Assembly: GCA_002841295.1 (NCBI GenBank)
Contig: PHEU01000014.1
Coordinates: 1-48,348 of the forward strand
Source: Actinobacteria bacterium HGW-Actinobacteria-6
Lineage (GTDB): Bacteria > Actinomycetota > Coriobacteriia > Anaerosomatales > Anaerosomataceae
Direction of reading: 5' to 3'
Length of the DNA stretch: 48,348 nucleotides
In this document: positions 5,234-43,503 of the stretch, piece by piece
How positions within the stretch are numbered: position 1 is the first letter of the stretch
Layout of the letters: each line of letters opens with the position of its first letter
Notes under the pieces: generated by a model
Seen by the model: only the letters and a program-made list of their open reading frames with translations
The model's database searches: none
What the model was told of the DNA's origin: nothing
Program-made: the position numbers and the translations under genes

Positions 5234-5827
5234 TTAGAACAGACTGCTGCCATCAGGGCGCCTTCGGGTGCCCTGAGTACTTCCCGGATGATCCGCCGGC
5301 CTGGCAAGCCCCCGAAACTGCTGCCAGACCTCACGCTTGCGGTCTTCATCGCCGAGCGACGCTTCCAGGCCGTTGACCGCGAGCAACGTCACGCCCTGCA
5401 CTGCCACGGGCTCACCAAACGCGAGGGCGGACAACCTGAACGCTGCTGCCACATCGGCCGCCGCTACCACATCGAGCGCGACGACGACTGCGGGATCAAC
5501 CGCAAGTAGCTGCATTCGCAACCGGGCAGCGATGACGTCAGGCTCAAGGGCAGACGCAGGCCGCGATACGCTGCTCCACACCTCGCCGAGTGCACCGAGT
5601 GCGTCCAGCGCCTTGCGCGCGGCATCTCCGTCGGGTCCTGCGAGGGCAATGCCACCAGCCCGCTCGCCTTCCCCCGGTTCCCCCTTCACAAGCGCCACTG
5701 CGGGAAATACGCTCCCGGACCAGGCGATGCATCCGGACTCGCCAAGGAGCTCGTCCGCGGAGGCAAGCTCCGCGCGGACTTTCGCTTCCGCGAGTTCCTC
5801 AGAGCGAGCGTCTATCGCGCAAACCAT
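5234..5827 (-). CDS. Unrecognised 197-residue protein
   Basis: I do not recognise the family. The protein is rich in Ala, Val and Leu, without a signal peptide or clear membrane segments. It contains alternating hydrophobic stretches (LLAVDPAVVVALDVVAAADV) and an Arg-rich tail. It overlaps the 3' end of the epimerase gene by 16 bases and has GGAAGGA eight bases before the ATG, so it is probably the third gene of the sortase-epimerase operon. The last residues (TRRRPDGSSLF) are encoded across the hairpin that probably terminates the convergent ferredoxin gene. Confidence 0.65.
   Translation of the reverse strand: MVCAIDARSEELAEAKVRAELASADELLGESGCIAWSGSVFPAVALVKGEPGEGERAGGIALAGPDGDAARKALDALGALGEVWSSVSRPASALEPDVIAARLRMQLLAVDPAVVVALDVVAAADVAAAFRLSALAFGEPVAVQGVTLLAVNGLEASLGDEDRKREVWQQFRGLARPADHPGSTQGTRRRPDGSSLF
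5253..5276 (+). terminator. UUCG-capped hairpin after the ferredoxin gene
   Basis: A stem of about ten pairs (TCAGGGCGCC / GGTGCCCTGA, one G-T pair) closes on a TTCG tetraloop 29 bases after the ferredoxin stop. There is no long T run, so termination efficiency is uncertain. It overlaps the 3' end of the convergent gene. Confidence 0.45.
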
Positions 5828-6747
5828 GCGACGGTCCTTCCGAGCGCGTTCTCAAACGGCGCACGCGCCTCCCAACCAAGTGCGGCTTGCACCTTGGACG
5901 GGTCGAGCACGCTGCGCTCGATGTCGCCATCGCGCGCGGGCTGCTTGTCGATGCCGCCCATGTACCGGGTCGCCATCCGCAGCGCCGAGGCGAGTTCATC
6001 GACCGACATCTCTCTGCCTGTCGCGATGTTGTACGCGGGACCGTCGATGCCTTCGAGCGCGAGCGGCTCCGGCGCATCAAGTGCCGAGATAATCGCCGAG
6101 ACAATGTCGCCTACGTAGATGAAGTCCCTGGTCTGCGCTCCGGATCCGTAGATCACGGGCGTCTCTTTGGCCTGCATCTTCGACGCGAAGATGGCGACCA
6201 CACCGCCCTCACCCAGGGCGTCTTGCCTCGGCCCAAAGACATTGGCGAATCGCAGGCACGCGAAGTCGGTGCCCGAGCCGCGAAGTTCCTCGGCCAGGAC
6301 AGCCTCGGCCTCAAGCTTCGAGCGACCGTACGGATTAGCCGGTCGCTTCGCGGCCGTCTCAGGGAGCGGAAGCACCTCCGGCTCGCCATACACTGCCGCC
6401 GACGATGCCGAGAGGACCAGCTTTGCACCGGCCGCGCGGGCGGCGCGCGCCACGGCACGGGTGCCTTCAACGTTCACGAGGTGGTCGCGTTCCGGATCCG
6501 CAACAGAAACAGGGACGCTGGTCTGTGCCGCCAGATGCACGACGGCGTCAGGCGCAAACTCCGCAACTGCCAAGGCAAGGTCGGGTCCCGTGATGTCGAG
6601 CGTCCTGAACCACGCCGCTGGATGCAGGTTCTCGAAATGCCCGGTGCTGAGATCATCGAGCACGCCGACCTGATAATCGCCGGTGAGAAGCGTCCGAACG
6701 AGGTTTGACCCGATGAAACCTGCACCGCCGGTGATGAGAACCCGCAT
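5812..6747 (-). CDS. NAD-dependent epimerase/dehydratase (UDP-glucose 4-epimerase-like)
   Basis: This is an extended short-chain dehydrogenase that probably interconverts nucleotide sugars for cell-surface polysaccharide or glycoprotein. It has the Rossmann motif VLITGGAGFIGSNLV at the N-terminus, D-D-L-S-T-G near residue 33 and the catalytic SSAAVYG Ser region. YGRSK supplies the Tyr and Lys of the active site, and RFANVFGPRQ and RDFIYVGDIV are also typical of GalE-like enzymes. Two adjacent ATGs exist (6750 and 6747). The second has better spacing from AAGGAG and is used here. It follows the sortase gene by about ten bases, suggesting a surface-assembly operon. The substrate sugar cannot be fixed from sequence. 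Confidence 0.88.
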   Translation of the reverse strand: MRVLITGGAGFIGSNLVRTLLTGDYQVGVLDDLSTGHFENLHPAAWFRTLDITGPDLALAVAEFAPDAVVHLAAQTSVPVSVADPERDHLVNVEGTRAVARAARAAGAKLVLSASSAAVYGEPEVLPLPETAAKRPANPYGRSKLEAEAVLAEELRGSGTDFACLRFANVFGPRQDALGEGGVVAIFASKMQAKETPVIYGSGAQTRDFIYVGDIVSAIISALDAPEPLALEGIDGPAYNIATGREMSVDELASALRMATRYMGGIDKQPARDGDIERSVLDPSKVQAALGWEARAPFENALGRTVAWFAR

Positions 6748-6757
6748 CATTGGCTCC

Positions 6758-7423
6758 TTAGCTGCCGCCCTGATCCAGGCGACGCACCCCGGTCAGGTCG
6801 GCTTGGATTATGTATCGGTATCGCGCGCTGTACGGTGGATGACAAGCAGTCAGTGTGAGCGTGGGTTCCTCGGTGGTGTCGAAGACCTCGACTTTGTCCG
6901 GGGTCACCGTGAACGCGCGAGTAACAGTGTATCGGTAGCGACGGTATGGAGAGTACAAGTCTATGACATCCCCGACCTCAAGCTGATCGATACGCCTGAA
7001 CGGTGCGAGATATGTGGTGCGGTGACCCGAGATGCCACAGTTGCCGGTAGGTCCCGGAAGATCCGTGTACGTGACCCAACCCGGACCCTTCTTCAGGTCC
7101 GCCACCGCCACGCCCTTGACGACGACCGCATCGAGGCTCATCCGCTCGATGACCATGCGGCCGAACACGCCCCCCTCGGCAAGTCCGTCCCAGTACGCCT
7201 TATCCGTCGACTCCCAGTCTCCGAAGTCGAGTACTGGTCCGGTGCTATCGACCTGCGGCACCGTTGCTGACACCCCACCGAACCGATCCAGCTCGTGACG
7301 AAGGCGCCCTTGCTCCGCCCACGTCAGAAGGCTTGTCAGACCGTAGTAGCCGAGCAGCCCGACAGCTATGCCGAGGAACACATTCCCAAGCGCATGGGAG
7401 AGCACGTTCCCGGTATGCCGCAC
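6758..7423 (-). CDS. Class E sortase
   Basis: This is a membrane-anchored transpeptidase that cleaves sorting signals and attaches proteins to the cell wall. The 221-residue protein has one N-terminal membrane segment (NVFLGIAVGLLGYYGL), then the sortase barrel. His is in CGISGHRTTY, the catalytic Cys in TLTACHPPYSARYRYI, and an Arg follows in the same motif. These signatures fit class E. The GTG at 7423 is chosen because GGAGGT lies five bases upstream; the frame stays open further upstream but that part is not family-like. An LPFTG-bearing protein lies 1 kb away. Class E enzymes usually prefer LAxTG, so the pairing is plausible but unproven. Confidence 0.9.
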   Translation of the reverse strand: MRHTGNVLSHALGNVFLGIAVGLLGYYGLTSLLTWAEQGRLRHELDRFGGVSATVPQVDSTGPVLDFGDWESTDKAYWDGLAEGGVFGRMVIERMSLDAVVVKGVAVADLKKGPGWVTYTDLPGPTGNCGISGHRTTYLAPFRRIDQLEVGDVIDLYSPYRRYRYTVTRAFTVTPDKVEVFDTTEEPTLTLTACHPPYSARYRYIIQADLTGVRRLDQGGS

Positions 7424-7456
7424 GACGCACCTCCAAGCATGGAAGTCACTTACAAA

Positions 7457-7472
7457 TGTGACGAATGCCACA
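7457..7472. promoter_or_regulatory. Possible CRP/FNR-type operator
   Basis: TGTGA-N6-CCACA differs from the CRP-family consensus TGTGA-N6-TCACA at one base. It lies 34 bases upstream of the sortase start codon and about 95 bases before the riboswitch. An overlapping dyad GTCAC-N8-GTGAC is also present. This rests on pattern only. Confidence 0.3.
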
Positions 7473-7550
7473 TAAACAGTTAAGGCAGAATGAGTCGCTG
7501 CCGATACAACCAGTGTAAAGCGATTGACAAGCGAATACCGGAACGAACCC

Positions 7551-7642
7551 CGAAAAAGGCACTCCCGCTGAAAGGCGGGCAACGCAAAGTCACGGGTCTA
7601 ACGGGAGGCATGCCTCCCTACGACAGCCGGACTACCGAAGGT
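7551..7642 (+). ncRNA. Cyclic-di-GMP-I (GEMM) riboswitch aptamer
   Basis: The sequence has the ordered hallmarks of GEMM-I RNA. First is a P2 hairpin CCCGCT-GAAA-GGCGGG with the GAAA tetraloop, then the near-invariant ACGCAAAG. A CACGGGTCTAA segment follows, providing the tetraloop receptor side. Next come a perfect P3 hairpin (GGGAGGCAT / ATGCCTCCC region) and the closing CAGCCGGACTACCGA. A rho-independent terminator begins 19 bases downstream, then the start codon of a secreted HExxH protein. The family binds c-di-GMP and commonly controls adhesion, motility and surface genes. Whether ligand turns this one on or off needs the antiterminator fold and cannot be told by eye. Aptamer boundaries are approximate. 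Confidence 0.88.
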
Positions 7643-7660
7643 CGAGCCATCTTGAGAGAT

Positions 7661-7705
7661 ACCGGCCCGATCACCCAGCGCCTTAGGGGATCAGGGCCGG
7701 TTTTT
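7661..7705 (+). terminator. Riboswitch expression-platform terminator
   Basis: A strong 12-bp stem with one bulge (ACCGGCCCGATC pairing with GATC-A-GGGCCGGT) is followed directly by TTTTT. It stands between the c-di-GMP-I aptamer and the downstream gene, 33 bases before the ATG, so it is the expected genetic switch. Confidence 0.88.
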
Positions 7706-7737
7706 CGCACTCGAGGCTCGAAAAGGGGCGTTCCACA

Positions 7738-8271
7738 ATGAAGCATCACAACGCAAGAATCGCCGCGGCAGGGCTCGTCACAGCCTTCGCAGTCGTGGCA
7801 GCTCTCTCTGCCGGATTCACTCCCGTCAACGCCACAGCACAGGCAACCGCCGCTGTGGGCGACCTGGTTGAGGCAGCACCCACCGTCAAGATTCCCGTCA
7901 AGGTCGCGCCGACTGCTCAGACTGCAACGCGGCAGCGGACAGCAACGACCATCCGTACTGCCACCGCGAAGGCGAGCAGCAAGTCGACGCTCACAACCGC
8001 GTACAAGTCCTCGACCGGAGAGCTCGGCGATGCCAAGGCCATCCTGGCCGGACTCGTCAAGAAGTACCCGATCCTCAAGGGCACGACAGTGACGATAGGC
8101 AGCACCCCCGGTGGATATCAGGCAGTCGCGTACTACAAGTCAGGACGCATAGTCATCAGCTCGAAGCACACAGCCAGCCTGTCTCGAATCCTGAACCACG
8201 AGGTGTGGCACATCATCGACTGGCGCGACAACGGTCGTATCGACTGGGGCGAGAACGTCCCGCCCAGGTAG
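7738..8271 (+). CDS. Secreted HExxH protein, putative zinc metalloprotease under riboswitch control
   Basis: The 177-residue protein begins with a clear signal peptide (basic MKHHNAR, hydrophobic core AAAGLVTAFAVVAAL, likely cleavage after NATAQA). A Pro/Thr/Lys-rich low-complexity stretch runs to about residue 90. The compact C-terminal domain ends with HEVWH at residues 154-158, then IIDWRDNGRIDWGENVPPR. HExxH is the zinc-binding and catalytic motif of metallopeptidases. Glu172 is a candidate third ligand, as in gluzincins. The domain is small and the protein ends soon after the motif, so activity is inferred, not shown. AAGGGG precedes the ATG. The gene lies behind a c-di-GMP-I riboswitch and converges on a gene for an anchored adhesin. 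Confidence 0.8.
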   Translation: MKHHNARIAAAGLVTAFAVVAALSAGFTPVNATAQATAAVGDLVEAAPTVKIPVKVAPTAQTATRQRTATTIRTATAKASSKSTLTTAYKSSTGELGDAKAILAGLVKKYPILKGTTVTIGSTPGGYQAVAYYKSGRIVISSKHTASLSRILNHEVWHIIDWRDNGRIDWGENVPPR

Positions 8272-8290
8272 GCGCCAATTCCCGCAATCC

Positions 8291-8330
8291 AGAAGCCCCG
8301 GGTCACCCCCTCCCCCGGGGCTTCTCCTTT
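8291..8330 (+). terminator. Terminator of the HExxH gene
   Basis: A 12-bp perfect stem (AGAAGCCCCGGG / CCCGGGGCTTCT) with an 11-base loop lies 20 bases after the stop, followed by a short CCTTT tract. Confidence 0.75.
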
Positions 8331-8351
8331 GCCCACAGACAGAAGCCCGGG

Positions 8352-8381
8352 AAACAAGAGAGCCGCCCGAAGGCGGCTCTC
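8352..8381 (-). terminator. Terminator of the LPFTG surface protein gene
   Basis: A 10-bp perfect stem (GAGAGCCGCC / GGCGGCTCTC) closed by a tetraloop lies 23 bases after the adhesin stop. On the minus strand it is followed by TTGTTT. Confidence 0.75.
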
Positions 8382-8404
8382 CCGTTTAGTACACGAACCA
8401 AGCA

Positions 8405-11400
8405 TTATGCGCGGCGTTGGCGCAGGAGCAGGCCGACTCCCATGCTGACCGCAGCTGCGAGAACCAGCAGCATCCATTCACCGCCGGTGAACGGCAGGAA
8501 CGGCTCGTCGACTGTGACATCGACTCTCCAGTTGGCTCTGTCGCCACCAGGATAGATAACCGCAACGTTGTCGACATGGGTCAGACCCGTCGGCATGTTG
8601 CTGTGAACGCGCATCGTGTAGGTGATACTCCGCGACTCGCCTACTTCTAGCGGAACCAAATCGATCCACTCAAGAACGCCACCGGAGGCGGTTGCACCAG
8701 CAACATCGACCGGCGTCATGTACCGCTGATCGTAGTCGTCCAGAACGGTGACTGATGCAACGACACTGTCACCGACGTTCCTGTACGTCAGCGTGTATGT
8801 GACCAGGTCACCAGGATCGGCGACGCTCTTGTCGGCGGACTTCGTGAGTGACACATCCGTGAAGGGCTCGAATGGCTCAAGGTTACCGAAGTTCTTGTCC
8901 ACAAGTGCCGAGCCGTTCACAACCTCGAAGGTCCCTATCGGACCCACGGTCATGGTCCAGCCTTCCTGCTGGTCCTCGGCAAGATAGTACGTACCGGGGA
9001 GCACACCAGTGAAGCTGTAGGAACCGTCTACGCCGGTTACCGTGGAGGCATACTCGGCAAAGCCAAGGTCTGCATCCGGGAGGGCGCGTGGGACAATCTG
9101 GTCGTCCATCGCTTGATACAGCCCTATGGTCCAACCAGGCAGCCCAAACTCATCCGGAGCATCCCACACGCCGTTACCGTCATCGTCCGAGAACTTGTAG
9201 CCACTCACGGAAGCGGTGTACGTGAACGAGTTCGTCATGTCACCTTCCAGAGTCTCTCCGGGCGACTCGCCAAGAACGTACGTCCTGCCGTCGAGATGCG
9301 CGTACCAGGTAACAGCGCCGATCTCCCACGGATACAGGACTGGCAGCGAAGCGGCATACGGACCCGTGCCCTCAAGATCGAGGTCAGCAGGCTCTCCGTT
9401 GAGCATGAAGGAGGCGGAGAACGTGGTGCCAACCGGCGCTCCCGCATACGTCAACTCGAACGTCTTGGTGTAGATGATCTGATGGTTGCCGAAATCAGCG
9501 CCGGTGATGACTGTCTCGTTGTCGACCGGCATGTCTGCCGGCGAGGCCGTCATCGTCCAGCCCGGCTGCTCCACTTCTTCGACTCTGTACATGCCTGGAA
9601 GCAGGCCGTCGAAGCTGTAGCTGCCGTCAGGACCAGTGACCGTCTCAGCCATGTAGTCCCAACCCAGGTCAACCAGCGGTGCAATGTCGGCACCAATTAC
9701 GAACGGCGCGGCTCTGTAGAGCTTGATGGTCCAACCCTCAAGCGCGGGCTCGCCCTCATCCCAGATGCCGTTGTTATTGAGATCGCTGTACTTGTGACCG
9801 GATATCTCGCCGGGCACGTATTCGAACGGGTTGGTCATGGGGCCGGTGAGCGTCTCAGGACCCATGACGGTCGAGAGCGCCACTTCTTCGGCACCCATCA
9901 TCGCGAAGAACTGCCAACTTGCGATCGTGGTGTCGTACGGGAGCTCCACGCTCGCAGAGTACTTGCCGTTGCTCATCGTGAGCGCCAGGTCGTGCGAAGC
10001 CGCTCCGACCATGTAGCGGACGAAATAGCTGTCAGCAGCCGGCATGCGGTCGGTGACCGTGAGCTCGAAGGTCTTGGTGAGCCCCACGCCGACCTCGGCC
10101 GAAGCCTCGTCGGTTACGGTGCCCTTGTCGCCGCCGAGGGCGTCGACGCCCGTGGCCACGACGGTGTCAGCGGTCGGGGCGGTGATCGTCTCAACCCACT
10201 GATAGTCCTTATGCTCGCCCGCGCCGAGCACGAGCCCGGTGTCGAGCGTCTTATGGACAGAGCCCTCGATGTAGTCAACGACGTCGATCGTGAGCGTCGT
10301 GTGCCCTGTGTTAGTGACTGTCACGTAGTAAGTGACATCACCGGAGTCGGTCACCATCGTGGGATCGACCGACTTCGTGATATCGATGTCCGGACGCAGG
10401 ATATCTGCGTGCGCGTCGTCGGTATCCGAGACAGGACCGAACGCCGTGGTGCCTTCGGCATAGGCGGTGTTGTCCACCATGTCTGCATCAGGCGCCGGCA
10501 TGGTACGAACGATCGCCAGACTCAGGTCCGAGAGGGACTGCCCCGGCAGCAAGGCAACCGGCGCGACGAGTAGGTTCGCTCCGCCACTGAACATCGGGTC
10601 GGTCACGGTCGTGAGGAGCACCGCAACATCGCCCGTGTTCTCGACGTCGATCGTGTAGGTGAGCGTGTCGCCCACATGCGCCACCAGTGGAGAGACGCTC
10701 TTGGTGGTGGTGATCCCGATCGGCTTCTGCTGGTTCACGAAGTCGACGCCGGTGAACACCGCGCCACTCACGATCGCGAACGGACCGAGATGATCTCCGC
10801 TCGGCGTGATCTTGATGTAGTCAGACTGCTCGGCCTCTTCGACCGTGTAGCTGCCAGGGAGAAGACCGGCGAAGTGGAAAACGCCGTCTGCGCCGGTAGT
10901 CATCTGGCCGTAGAAATCGCCATCGCGGAAGAGCTTGATGAGCCAGCCCTCGCCCGGGATGTCGCCTTCGCCGTCGCCGTCCGTGTCGATGTACTTGTGA
11001 CCGGATATCTCACCGGGCACGTATCTGAACGGGTTGGTCATGGGACCGGTGAGCGTCTCAGGACCGAGAACGGTCGAGAGCGCTACTTCGTCGGCACCCA
11101 TCATCGCGAAGAACTGCCAGCTTGCGATCGTGGTGTTGTACGGGAGCTCCACGCTCGCAGAGTACTTGCCGTTGCTCATCGTGAGCGCCAGGTCGTGCGA
11201 TGCCGCACCGACCATGTAGCGGACGAAGTAGCTGTCCGCAGCCGGCATGGCGTCTGTGACCGTGAGCTCAAAGGTCTTGGTCACTGCAGGACGCTGGTTC
11301 CCGACCTTGATCGGACCGACGACCTGATCCTTCGCAATTGTAATAGCCTGCGACAGGTTCGTCGTGAGCGTGAATCCGTCCTTGGCTACCTCACTGAGCT

Positions 11401-12478
11401 TGTAGTCACCCGGCGGTAGACCAGTGAACGAGAACGTACCGTCTGCCGCCGATGTGGCGGTCAACGTGAACGAGTACGACGGGTCGAGGTACTCAAGATG
11501 GAACTCCCAACCCGACAGCGGGTTCTCGCCAGCTTCTTGGGTTCCGTTGCCATTGACGTCCTCGAACTTGAGGCCATCAAGCCTACCCGTCGGAGCCGTC
11601 TCTCTGCCCACAGGGAACGGGACAGTACGATCACCGATGTTTTCGCCATTCCATTCGACGAGCCTCGCCTGTGCGCTGGAGCCGGGATAGCCCGATGCGC
11701 CGAGATACGATGGCGACTGAGTCATCCAGTACGGCGTGAGCGCCAGGTGGCCCTCGAAGTAGATGTAACCGGTTTCTCCCGCAGGAATAACGAAGCCAGC
11801 TGCCTCGGGTAGCTGGGTCTTGAGGTACATGGGATCAGAGTCAACGTCCTGGGAGCTGGGCGAATACGCCGTCACCGACCCAGAGCCGACCTGCCAGCGC
11901 CAGCCGGCGGTCTCATCGACGGCGATTGCACCGCCGTTGATGTAGTCAACCGTGTAGGCCATGGACGGTACCTGGACTGTCACAGCACTGCCCTTGGTAT
12001 TGTCGATCGAGAGCCGGAACGGAATCCACTCTCCCTCGACGTAGCCCTTGACGTCACCGCTGGTCCACTTCACATGCGGAGCACGCGTCCAACCCTCAAG
12101 CTGAACCGCACCTACTTCCGCATACGGAACCACGGTTGCAACAGACACGGCCGTTGGCGCCGAGACAACCGGCGGAACGACTCTACGGGTCTTGACCGAT
12201 GCGGTCGGCACCGGCGCAACCGGATCTTGATCTGAAGGCGCTTCCGTGCCCCTCGTAACGGATGCCTCCACCGGAACCTCGGCTACTGTCGGTTCCTCGG
12301 CAACCGGTGCCTCAGGCTCAGGCACCGCCACCTCCTCGGTAGCCGGTACTTGCGATGGAACGGTCTCTTCAGCGTGTACCACTATGCCAGGGCTGACGAC
12401 TGCGATTGCCAGCACGAGCGCTACGTACGCCGAGAAGAAACGACCGATTCCACCTCCACTCTTTCTCCAGTGCATCAT
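8405..12478 (-). CDS. Large LPxTG-anchored SdrB/DUF11 repeat surface protein
   Basis: This is a cell-wall-anchored adhesin-like protein of 1357 residues. A signal peptide (hydrophobic VALVLAIAVVSPGIVV, cleavage near residue 36) is followed by a Pro/Val/Glu-rich linker containing VVPPVV at residues 100-105. An N-terminal domain of unknown type comes next. Four SdrD-B-like modules follow, each with a calcium-site pattern such as KFEDVNGNGTQEAGENPL and a GSYSF..LLPG..Y.VEE ending. These are interleaved with two DUF11-like domains and three copies of a KTFELT-starting module. A final DUF11-like domain leads to LPFTG (8483-8497), a hydrophobic segment and RQRRA, a complete sorting signal. ATG 12478 has AAGGGG upstream. 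A long leader with an internal terminator precedes it. Confidence 0.92.
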   Translation of the reverse strand: MMHWRKSGGGIGRFFSAYVALVLAIAVVSPGIVVHAEETVPSQVPATEEVAVPEPEAPVAEEPTVAEVPVEASVTRGTEAPSDQDPVAPVPTASVKTRRVVPPVVSAPTAVSVATVVPYAEVGAVQLEGWTRAPHVKWTSGDVKGYVEGEWIPFRLSIDNTKGSAVTVQVPSMAYTVDYINGGAIAVDETAGWRWQVGSGSVTAYSPSSQDVDSDPMYLKTQLPEAAGFVIPAGETGYIYFEGHLALTPYWMTQSPSYLGASGYPGSSAQARLVEWNGENIGDRTVPFPVGRETAPTGRLDGLKFEDVNGNGTQEAGENPLSGWEFHLEYLDPSYSFTLTATSAADGTFSFTGLPPGDYKLSEVAKDGFTLTTNLSQAITIAKDQVVGPIKVGNQRPAVTKTFELTVTDAMPAADSYFVRYMVGAASHDLALTMSNGKYSASVELPYNTTIASWQFFAMMGADEVALSTVLGPETLTGPMTNPFRYVPGEISGHKYIDTDGDGEGDIPGEGWLIKLFRDGDFYGQMTTGADGVFHFAGLLPGSYTVEEAEQSDYIKITPSGDHLGPFAIVSGAVFTGVDFVNQQKPIGITTTKSVSPLVAHVGDTLTYTIDVENTGDVAVLLTTVTDPMFSGGANLLVAPVALLPGQSLSDLSLAIVRTMPAPDADMVDNTAYAEGTTAFGPVSDTDDAHADILRPDIDITKSVDPTMVTDSGDVTYYVTVTNTGHTTLTIDVVDYIEGSVHKTLDTGLVLGAGEHKDYQWVETITAPTADTVVATGVDALGGDKGTVTDEASAEVGVGLTKTFELTVTDRMPAADSYFVRYMVGAASHDLALTMSNGKYSASVELPYDTTIASWQFFAMMGAEEVALSTVMGPETLTGPMTNPFEYVPGEISGHKYSDLNNNGIWDEGEPALEGWTIKLYRAAPFVIGADIAPLVDLGWDYMAETVTGPDGSYSFDGLLPGMYRVEEVEQPGWTMTASPADMPVDNETVITGADFGNHQIIYTKTFELTYAGAPVGTTFSASFMLNGEPADLDLEGTGPYAASLPVLYPWEIGAVTWYAHLDGRTYVLGESPGETLEGDMTNSFTYTASVSGYKFSDDDGNGVWDAPDEFGLPGWTIGLYQAMDDQIVPRALPDADLGFAEYASTVTGVDGSYSFTGVLPGTYYLAEDQQEGWTMTVGPIGTFEVVNGSALVDKNFGNLEPFEPFTDVSLTKSADKSVADPGDLVTYTLTYRNVGDSVVASVTVLDDYDQRYMTPVDVAGATASGGVLEWIDLVPLEVGESRSITYTMRVHSNMPTGLTHVDNVAVIYPGGDRANWRVDVTVDEPFLPFTGGEWMLLVLAAAVSMGVGLLLRQRRA
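9789..10079. repeat. Internal repeat copy 2 of the surface protein
   Basis: This 291-bp segment encodes the second KTFELTVTD module. It matches 10992-11282 with about 19 substitutions and no indels. Such near identity points to recent duplication or ongoing gene conversion. Confidence 0.9.
10992..11282. repeat. Internal repeat copy 1 of the surface protein
   Basis: This is the partner of 9789-10079 in direct orientation and equal length, about 93 percent identical by manual comparison. The two copies are separated by one SdrB-like and two DUF11-like modules. Confidence 0.9.
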
Positions 12479-12713
12479 TTCCAACACCCCTTTTTTAGGC
12501 ACGGGACTAGCGTCGCCGTGCGGCCTGAACATTCCAGCCGGGGTGGTCCTTGATGTGCAGAAAAGCAAAGACCGACCCCGAATGCATGGGTCGGTCTCAC
12601 CATTGACTCCGCGTCGACATCGGTGACCGGAATTTCAGTCGACGCCTCTTCGTCTCCCTCTAATCTCTATGTGCAGATATGTGAATTGATGCTTTCTTGC
12701 TCTGCACAAGTAT
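12479..12713 (-). promoter_or_regulatory. Long structured leader of the surface protein gene
   Basis: From the predicted transcription start (about 12713) to the ATG, the minus strand can form a series of stems. In order these are TGTGCAGA/TCTGCACA (12701-12708 with 12670-12677), GTCGACGC-type GCGTCGAC/GTCGACGC (12638-12645 with 12611-12618), a strong terminator (12569-12597), and a GCACGG/CCGTGC hairpin near the ribosome binding site. I recognise no known riboswitch class. An aptamer-like region before a terminator suggests attenuation control. The gap between lon and this gene (12479-12796) holds no gene. Confidence 0.5.
12560..12597 (-). terminator. Intrinsic terminator inside the surface-protein leader
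   Basis: A perfect 10-bp stem (AGACCGACCC / GGGTCGGTCT) with a 9-base loop is followed on the minus strand by TTTGCTTTT. It lies 82-120 bases upstream of the adhesin start codon with no clear promoter in between, so it probably attenuates that gene. It could alternatively end a readthrough lon transcript. Confidence 0.75.
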
Positions 12714-12719
12714 TCCACC

Positions 12720-12748
12720 ATTAGAGAACTCTAATCTTCGCTGCTCAA
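12720..12748 (-). promoter_or_regulatory. Predicted surface-protein promoter with palindromic operator
   Basis: A -35 TTGAGC and a -10 TCTAAT are separated by 17 bases. The 14-base perfect palindrome TTAGAG-N2-CTCTAA overlaps the -10. The dnaK promoter has a similar TTAGA...TCTAA palindrome at the same position. Confidence 0.45.
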
Positions 12749-12796: not shown

Positions 12797-15124
<2,328 letters not shown>

Positions 15125-15247
15125 CAAGGCAACGTCCTTTCGTGTCTGCGGGGTCGGTCGTGAGATAATCGTTCCCCAGTACTTCTTCTTCGAACATCAG
15201 TAACCCTGCCTCCGCTCGCCGGAGGCGGCCAACGGGGCGGCCCTATC

Positions 15248-41679: not shown

Positions 41680-43503
41680 CTAGCCGGGAGCCAGCCGCAC
41701 CTGGTCCTTCCCGGCGTGCATTGCCTCCCGGAGCGCCGCGTCCGCGGACTCCAGCAACGCCATCGGATCCGAGAGTGTCTCGGCAGCCGTTGCAACACCT
41801 GCCGAGACGCTCAGGGCGTTATCGTCTGTATACCCCTCAGCACGACCGATGTCCGCTTTGCGAATCGCCGAGCGGATCTTCTCGGTGACAGCGAATGCGG
41901 CGGTCTTGCCCACGCCCGGGAGCAGCACGGCGAACTGGTCCGCCACGTAACGCGCCGCCATGTCGGTGGACCTGAGTTGCACCGCCAACAGATTCCCAAG
42001 TGCGGCCAGTATCCGGTCACCGGCTTCTTCGCCGAGCGAGTCGTTGACCGATCCGAAGTCATCGATATCGAAGAGCACTAGTGACAGCGGCGCCTTGTAG
42101 CGAGCATGCCGGGCGACCTCAAGCTGCAACCGCTCCGCGAAGGCACGTCTGTTCCATAGCCCCGTCAGCGCATCGAGGGTCCGGGTCGCCTCAAGCGATT
42201 CCTCGGCGCTGGCAAGGCGCTGACGCTGCAGTGGGAAGCACATCGACCAGGTCGAGTCTCCACGCAAGATGGCGATTGCGTGCTCGACACAGGTGGGATA
42301 GCCACACGATCCACAGTCCAGTGCGTCCGCCCGGGTGGCGAATCCGCCAGAGACGAGCACCTCGTCTATCTGCTGCTCTTCCGGGCGCGGTATGTGCACC
42401 GGTTCCGCAATAAACGAGCGCACAAGCTCGACTGCAGGCAGGACGCCGAGCAGCGCACGGGTGCTCACACGTGTTGTGCCGGGCAACTCGCGGGCGGCCG
42501 CCTCGACATTGCGCTTCGAGAAGAGTGAGAGCCCCGGGTTGACCGCCGGACCGTCGATGCAGCCCTCGCAGTTGAGCATATCCACGATTGCAGGCGCAAT
42601 CTCACCCGAGGTCATCGCCGCGAGCAGACGATCGAGCGCTTCGATGCCGCGCACCACGTACACCTGCTGGCTGGTCATGTCACTGGCGGCAAGCGTCTTG
42701 CGCGGGAAGCCGTCAGTGAGCGAGATCTCCTTGAAGATCCCGGGCCTGCGCGGACCGGGCTCGATCGCCTTGCCTCGAACCGGATGCTGATGCTCGGACT
42801 CAGCGATCATCGACTTGAGTTCTGCGAAGTCGATCGCAGCATCGATAACACCACCAAACTGGGGATCGTGGACTTCATCCTTGCGTGCGTAGCACGGGCT
42901 GACGTAGACGATGGCGACATCGTCGGGATAGAGCGACCTGATGAGTCGTGCCTGCGCGACATATGGCGGCATCACGGGAGCGAGTGCTGGTGTCAGTGCC
43001 GGGTAGTACCGTCGCACAAAGTTCACGGCCACCGGACACGTCGAGCGCATGACGAGCAGCGAATCCTCGCGAGCGTGCACACGTTCGTACTCAGCCGCAA
43101 CCATTTCCTCGCCGAGAAGCGTGGTCTCAACCGAGTGGAAGCCGAGAATGGTGAGTGCGCGCTCAACTTGCGGCACGGTCATCGGATGCATGGCCGCGAT
43201 GAACTCCGTCGCCAGCAAAGCGATCACCGGTCGACGTCCTCTGAGCAAATCAAGAACCTGCGGGGTGTCATCCCTGACGATGTGGCCGCGTGCACCACAC
43301 TCGTTCACGCACTGTCCGCAGGCGATGCACTTCTCCTGGATAACCTCGGATCGCCCGTCGACGACGCGAATCGCCTTCACAGGGCAAGCGCGCACACAGC
43401 CCCAGCACTCACGGCACGCTTCCTTGCGATGGGTGATGAGCGGCTCCCGCAGCTTATCGGCTGTCACCTCGACACCGGCATCGTGTCCGGCTCTGTCACT
43501 CAT
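41680..43503 (-). CDS. [FeFe]-hydrogenase-like sensor fused to FeS domain and degenerate GGDEF
   Basis: The 607-residue protein has a 2[4Fe-4S] ferredoxin domain (Cys30, 33, 36, 40 and Cys59, 62, 65, 69). A hydrogenase-like domain follows with equivalents of the H-cluster motifs: L1 RSTCPVAV (Cys156), L2 SPCYARKDE (Cys204), L3 NCEGCIDGP (Cys312, Cys315). Next are a four-Cys FeS domain (Cys397, 400, 405, 422) and a C-terminal GGDEF fold (LDALTGLWNRRAF, FDIDDFGSVND). The GGDEF signature itself reads V-A-D-Q-F (520-524), so cyclase activity is doubtful. The layout resembles the sensory group C (HydS-like) hydrogenases, which sense rather than turn over H2. GGGGGATC precedes the ATG, and it lies 11 bases after QueT. 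Confidence 0.88.
   Translation of the reverse strand: MSDRAGHDAGVEVTADKLREPLITHRKEACRECWGCVRACPVKAIRVVDGRSEVIQEKCIACGQCVNECGARGHIVRDDTPQVLDLLRGRRPVIALLATEFIAAMHPMTVPQVERALTILGFHSVETTLLGEEMVAAEYERVHAREDSLLVMRSTCPVAVNFVRRYYPALTPALAPVMPPYVAQARLIRSLYPDDVAIVYVSPCYARKDEVHDPQFGGVIDAAIDFAELKSMIAESEHQHPVRGKAIEPGPRRPGIFKEISLTDGFPRKTLAASDMTSQQVYVVRGIEALDRLLAAMTSGEIAPAIVDMLNCEGCIDGPAVNPGLSLFSKRNVEAAARELPGTTRVSTRALLGVLPAVELVRSFIAEPVHIPRPEEQQIDEVLVSGGFATRADALDCGSCGYPTCVEHAIAILRGDSTWSMCFPLQRQRLASAEESLEATRTLDALTGLWNRRAFAERLQLEVARHARYKAPLSLVLFDIDDFGSVNDSLGEEAGDRILAALGNLLAVQLRSTDMAARYVADQFAVLLPGVGKTAAFAVTEKIRSAIRKADIGRAEGYTDDNALSVSAGVATAAETLSDPMALLESADAALREAMHAGKDQVRLAPG

Follow-up and report, generated by a model that had tools for sequence, protein, structure and literature searches.

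The window analysed here, a stretch of 48,348 nucleotides (nt) of contig PHEU01000014.1 from Actinobacteria bacterium HGW-Actinobacteria-6, carries a surface locus in which a gene for an HExxH protein and a gene for an LPFTG adhesin each stand behind an aptamer for cyclic di-GMP (c-di-GMP). Along the forward strand, a sugar epimerase gene is followed by a sortase gene, a class I aptamer (c-di-GMP-I), a hairpin with a run of five U residues, the HExxH gene, the convergent adhesin gene, a class II aptamer (c-di-GMP-II-GAG) and lon (Table 1). An earlier note, made from the same sequence, had described a c-di-GMP-controlled surface locus with a c-di-GMP-I riboswitch and terminator, a secreted HExxH protein, a convergent repeat adhesin of 1357 residues and a class E sortase. 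Most of this was borne out: the aptamer, the G+C-rich hairpin, the open reading frame (ORF) of the HExxH protein and that of the adhesin, with its repeats and anchor, were all recovered, and the involvement of c-di-GMP is now strongly supported. The sortase itself was confirmed, but its assignment to class E stood only in part, since class E (NF033747) was the best NCBIfam class at 99.6 bits, which is below the curated cut-off of 160. The span given to the locus, from position 5812, was too wide, as its left end is the epimerase gene, which lies outside the module. The class II aptamer, directly upstream of the adhesin gene, was absent from that note. No other new fact is as informative, since a class I aptamer with an HExxH gene and a class II aptamer with a sortase substrate is the arrangement of CD2830 and CD2831 in Clostridioides difficile. 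It brings the parallel with that organism, already drawn in the note, much closer (PMC4591827, PMC3649979).

Table 1. Genes, motifs and leader elements of the locus, in order of position in the window.
Feature	Position	Strand	Remarks
Sugar epimerase gene	5812-6750	-	lies outside the module
Sortase gene	6758 to about 7423	-	divergent from HExxH gene; Pfam PF04203, 3.8e-30
Sortase start candidates	GTG 7423 or 7471; ORF open to TTG 7582	-	exact start uncertain
Strand U GCGAATACCGG	7531-7541	+	upstream of aptamer; complementary to M (7697-7708)
Strand Y GGAACGAACCCC	7540-7551	+	overlaps 5' edge of aptamer; complementary to ribosome-binding site
c-di-GMP-I aptamer	7548-7639	+	RF01051, 68.9 bits (gathering score 35), E 1.6e-11
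Strand D GGTCGAGCC	7640-7648	+	pairs with X
Hairpin with U5 tract	7662-7705	+	G+C-rich; terminator-like in this genus
Strand M CCGGTTTTTCGC	7697-7708	+	pairs with U; overlaps 3' arm of hairpin
Strand X (GGCTCGA)	7715-7721	+	pairs with D
Ribosome-binding site AGGGGCGTTCC	7724-7734	+	complementary to Y
HExxH protein gene	7738-8271	+	ORF, 177 amino acids
HExxH motif	8197-8211 (residues 154-158)	+	invariant in 43-member alignment
LPFTG adhesin gene	8405-12478 (ATG 12478, stop 8405)	-	1357 residues; SdrD_B/SpaA/DUF11 repeats
Sorting signal EPFLPFTG	8483-8506	-	LPFTG invariant in 34 aligned adhesin C-termini
Internal EPFEPFT motif	8858-8878	-	before last DUF11-like domain; candidate functional linker
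Adhesin ribosome-binding site region AAAAAAGGGGTGTT	12483-12496	-	
Intrinsic terminator	12561-12598	-	5' arm GAGACCGACCC is the class II aptamer 3' strand
c-di-GMP-II-GAG aptamer	12580-12666	-	RF03169, 65.2 bits (gathering score 40)
Class II aptamer loop CGGTCACC	12622-12629	-	complementary to GGTGAGACCG
lon	12797-15127	-	named from sequence

The terminator in the adhesin leader takes its 5' arm from the aptamer, and the same design was seen in relatives: in 28 of 31 class II leaders a GGGYCGGUCU further downstream pairs with 8-11 bases of GAGACCGNCCC, the 3' strand of the aptamer, and a U-rich run comes after the resulting hairpin in 25 of the 31. The 3' strand GAGACCGNCCC is also complementary to the aptamer loop CGGUCACC, and this complementarity is the pseudoknot known for class II c-di-GMP riboswitches. 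Because one strand serves both the aptamer and the terminator, ligand binding and termination should be mutually exclusive, and the adhesin leader is therefore predicted to be a clear ON switch, a prediction that is repeated in many genomes. In one genome (G034) the adhesin lies on a different contig from the protease and the class II switch is still present. Variants of the arrangement were also found. Tandem class II aptamers (L113 and L114) precede a single adhesin gene, the distal one without a terminator and followed by another structured stretch, and elsewhere tandem adhesin genes (L105 and L107), each with its own class II riboswitch, lie beside one protease gene.

The aptamer before the HExxH gene is the only class I aptamer in the genome, and its leader contains three pairings: U with M, D with X, and Y with the Shine-Dalgarno sequence (Y:SD). 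A duplex-energy swap test gave higher complementarity within leaders than between leaders for each of them (p<=1.5e-4, with swaps within families and one leader per genus, 20 genera); for Y:SD the value was 1.5e-4 even with swaps kept inside families. Three control pairings gave no covariation signal in the same test over the 20 genera. A gapless register count of Y:SD pairs gave 79, against 74.4 in swaps (standard deviation 3.9), which is no clear excess. Strand Y includes the CCCC at the aptamer edge. Pairings D:X and Y:SD can coexist, and together would bury the ribosome-binding site, while U:M excludes both. Two other pairings, of X with the region after the Shine-Dalgarno sequence and of U with D, were tested on the leaders and rejected. 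The hairpin of the leader is kept in most relatives but its U run is not, and since the U-tract appears to have been added in the genus of the window, transcription may also be controlled there.

Across the order, the parts of the locus are found together far more often than apart. Of 298 genomes of the class, 50 held the HExxH family, and every one of these belongs to the window's own order. Among the 55 HExxH genes, 45 have a class I aptamer on their own strand, 94-426 nt upstream, and 28 have a class II aptamer lying convergently within 10 kb, other nearby orientations being absent; at many of the remaining HExxH loci the contig ends inside the adhesin gene. The gene order epimerase, sortase, HExxH gene with class I aptamer, adhesin gene with class II aptamer, and lon is repeated across genera, the sortases of relatives being recognised by position and a TLxxC motif only. 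The earlier note had named a lack of co-occurrence in relatives among the results that would refute its reading; the parts do co-occur. In a sample of 69 genomes of the order (Coriobacteriia, OPB41/Anaerosomatales metagenome-assembled genomes, uncultured), an adhesin profile comprising the last domain and anchor, built from 34 sequences, matched in 46 genomes; protease and adhesin were both present in 44, the protease alone in six, the adhesin alone in two and neither in 17 (Fisher p=2.3e-9, kinship ignored). Where adjacent, the two genes are always convergent.

The class I aptamer shows the same association. It precedes the protease gene in 43 of the 44 adhesin-bearing genomes, the sole exception starting at a contig edge, and in one of the six adhesin-less genomes, one of which is likewise at a contig edge (p=2.6e-5, contig-edge cases left out and kinship ignored). 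Its absence was confirmed with permissive settings for two of the adhesin-less genomes, which are spread over at least three families. The aptamer thus tracks the presence of the adhesin, and the protease retains its switch in those genomes that retain the adhesin. In L127, which lacks the adhesin but bears the aptamer, Y:SD no longer seals the ribosome-binding site; its energy there is -4.5 kcal/mol, compared with -11.5 to -21.9 kcal/mol in other leaders. Judged from these genomes, protease, riboswitch and adhesin are evolutionarily coupled, and the arrangement, because it recurs across the order, is not a matter of chance.

The HExxH protein comprises a Sec-type signal region, a low-complexity linker rich in Ala, Ser and Thr, and a core of about residues 90-177, and would be a secreted, active metalloprotease. 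Residues H154, E155, H158, D161, W170 and E172, among others, are invariant in 43 homologues. For the window protein, neither Pfam nor NCBIfam gave a match at E<=1, nor was there any PDB sequence match, and profile searches with the 43 homologues gave no informative match in any of the three; matches to ATP-synthase b profiles arise from the low-complexity linker and were discarded, and no relative was found in the viral contigs searched. By these searches the protein has no sequence relatives in Pfam, NCBIfam or the PDB and represents a new family, in agreement with the suggestion of the earlier note that it is of a different type from PPEP-1. AlphaFold2 modelled residues 91-170 of the core with confidence (predicted local distance difference test, pLDDT, 88-98); E172, the candidate third zinc ligand, is invariant but falls within the low-confidence C-terminus of the model. 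The best structural neighbours were minigluzincins, with Z scores of 7.7 to 8.1 (2.5 to 2.9 Å over 75-80 residues, 15-16% identity; for the best, Z 8.1, 2.9 Å, 80 residues and 16%), a Z of about 8 being near the background typical of a common arrangement, and next came SprT/Wss1-like and anthrax-LF-type zincins (anthrax LF catalytic part, Z 5.6). PPEP-1 was missing from the structural matches, an absence that carries no evidential weight. The model thus supports a metalloprotease fold of minimal size but gives no ground for placing the protein in a named family. The same genome holds a second HExxH paralogue that has no riboswitch (L003, C11:2146-2382); it adjoins a cell-wall-binding-repeat-like protein and a response-regulator-like ORF, and second copies of this kind also occur in G031, G053 and G131.

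In the adhesin, a signal region, repeats (Pfam PF17210, 3.4e-33, and PF17802, 3.9e-27), an LPxTG-type motif, LPFTG, a hydrophobic stretch and a basic tail are all present, and through its coupling to the protease it would be the obvious candidate substrate. Ahead of their last DUF11-like domain, many of the related adhesins carry EEFLPFT or EPFLPFT, in general form E(E/P)FLPFT(E/D), and their anchor has EPFLPFTG. This linker may be a candidate protease site, a relic of a duplicated sorting signal or a structural element. In most of the adhesins a pseudo-sorting motif (EPFEPFT or EEFLPFT) precedes the true LPFTG signal at a distance of one domain, and in L108 and L095 the signals are doubled at the anchor itself.

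The reading we prefer, to which we give a little under an even chance, is that the locus is a c-di-GMP-governed attach-and-release module, in which the class I switch is OFF and the HExxH protein trims or releases the adhesin. At high c-di-GMP the class II aptamer would be stabilised and would sequester the 5' arm of the terminator, so that the adhesin is transcribed, and the adjacent sortase would anchor it. The class I leader would gate the ribosome-binding site of the HExxH gene and, in this genus, a terminator-like hairpin as well. When c-di-GMP falls, synthesis of the adhesin would stop and the metalloprotease would appear, to trim or release what is already on the surface. For the class I leader taken separately, OFF with c-di-GMP is slightly favoured as the most likely sign, because class I c-di-GMP riboswitches are mostly OFF in C. 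difficile (PMC3649979) and because other class I leaders of the order look like a direct, minimal translational OFF design. In the latter (L199, L202, L205, L206, L207 and L209) the 3' edge of the aptamer, which is the P1 3' strand, is the Shine-Dalgarno sequence itself; the genes downstream of these leaders specify secreted, hydrolase-like proteins.

Several observations weigh against the attach-and-release reading, and some of them speak for other explanations. The strand overlaps of the class I leader are equally compatible with ON, and equilibrium folding leaves the ribosome-binding site sealed with or without P1. A further point, and one that argues for ON, is that 32 of 33 leaders draw the anti-Shine-Dalgarno strand Y, with its CCCC, from the 5' strand of P1; formation of P1 should therefore loosen the seal. 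If both switches were ON, high c-di-GMP would induce the adhesin together with the HExxH protein, which would serve to process or assemble the adhesin layer, or to turn it over, rather than to disperse it. We consider this rather unlikely. In some class I leaders pairing D:X reuses the P1 3' strand. Given this and the use of the 5' strand by Y, stabilisation of P1 by the ligand would be expected to weaken the sealed state. When P1 was favoured in a folding model, the Shine-Dalgarno sequence became more accessible in 14 leaders and less accessible in four; the effect was small, however, the mean openness going from 0.26 to 0.32. Separate convergent genes with different riboswitch classes would also be an odd design for co-induction, and the OFF-like leaders elsewhere in the order, with the precedent of C. 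difficile, point the other way.

As to the substrate, no clustering of Pro-Pro sites of the PPEP type was found close to the anchor: the window adhesin has two PP pairs in all, neither near LPFTG. One genome (G022) has a complete adhesin gene without a class II aptamer. The protease is retained in six genomes that lack this adhesin, and therefore has, or had, another role. The locus has conserved dnaK and lon as its neighbours, a position that holds also in genomes without the adhesin, and co-location alone could thus reflect vertical inheritance. The last two observations, together with the riboswitch-free paralogue in the same genome, would fit an HExxH protein that acts on some other surface or cell-wall substrate and shares only regulation and ancestral position with the adhesin. 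Such an explanation is less probable again. Against it, genomes without the adhesin nearly always lack the class I switch and those with the adhesin have it, and the only two genomes with the adhesin and no protease are incomplete assemblies (73% and 64%). That the aptamers are non-functional remnants or chance resemblances beside unrelated surface genes is hardly credible, given two aptamers at E 1e-11, their placement conserved over the order, and expression platforms that covary where control pairings do not.

Other elements connected with c-di-GMP were seen in the window and in the order. A GGDEF domain gene lies at 41704-42177 of the same window, and the genome has 12 GGDEF domains. The class I aptamer of L193 stands before a gene whose product is HD/GGDEF-like (assigned by eye), with feedback on c-di-GMP levels as a possible role. 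Other c-di-GMP-II-GAG riboswitches of the order precede genes for long, secreted multihaem proteins with 11-38 CxxCH motifs (L175, L177, L178, L180-L183, L187, L190), which suggests control of extracellular electron transfer by c-di-GMP.

Compared with known systems, both aptamers are ordinary Rfam members of their classes, above the gathering score, and the covarying platform of U:M, D:X and Y:SD is the part that is particular to this lineage, a class I expression platform with a directly testable sign. The HExxH protein has no sequence match to PPEP-1 to -4, structures of which are in the PDB, and its predicted core is nearer to the minigluzincins, with no indication of Pro-Pro specificity. 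Its predicted fold (residues 92-177) aligns with those of the minigluzincins (selecase, jannalysin, abylysin), and it has a similarly minimal size and the HExxH motif, but the identity of 15-16% gives no relation at the sequence level, and the protein here has a signal region and linker. It would represent a new family of very small secreted HExxH proteins, in which the core measures about 80 residues and the adhesin is the obvious candidate for a substrate.

Only one worked-out case was found of two c-di-GMP riboswitch classes splitting an adhesin and a protease between them, that of C. difficile, where zmp1 (CD2830, PPEP-1) and CD2831 have the class I riboswitch Cdi1_12 and the class II riboswitch Cdi2_3, and the wiring is proven (PMC4591827, PMC3649979); the literature searched described no such module outside that species. 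As there, the genes here are adjacent; a class I aptamer leads the gene of a secreted HExxH protein, and a class II aptamer, predicted ON, leads that of a sortase-anchored adhesin. Unlike there, the phylum is different, the HExxH protein shows no sequence similarity by which a family could be recognised, the adhesin is of the SdrD_B/DUF11 type with LPFTG and no cluster of PP sites, the genes are convergent, the class I switch would act largely at the ribosome-binding site through its three-pairing platform, and the class II switch would control a plain terminator, no ribozyme having been seen. Because the types of protease and adhesin differ, the module was probably assembled independently of C. 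difficile, though the pairing of the two riboswitches could conceivably go back to a common ancient source. Somewhat tentatively, then, we propose that an attach/release switch evolved independently in the Coriobacteriia from class I and class II riboswitches, a new minimal family of secreted metalloproteases and a different adhesin, and was maintained across the order. If true, a shedding protease could be predicted from its riboswitch alone, and a second, unrelated lineage with the same wiring as C. difficile would mark it as a general solution to reversible attachment.

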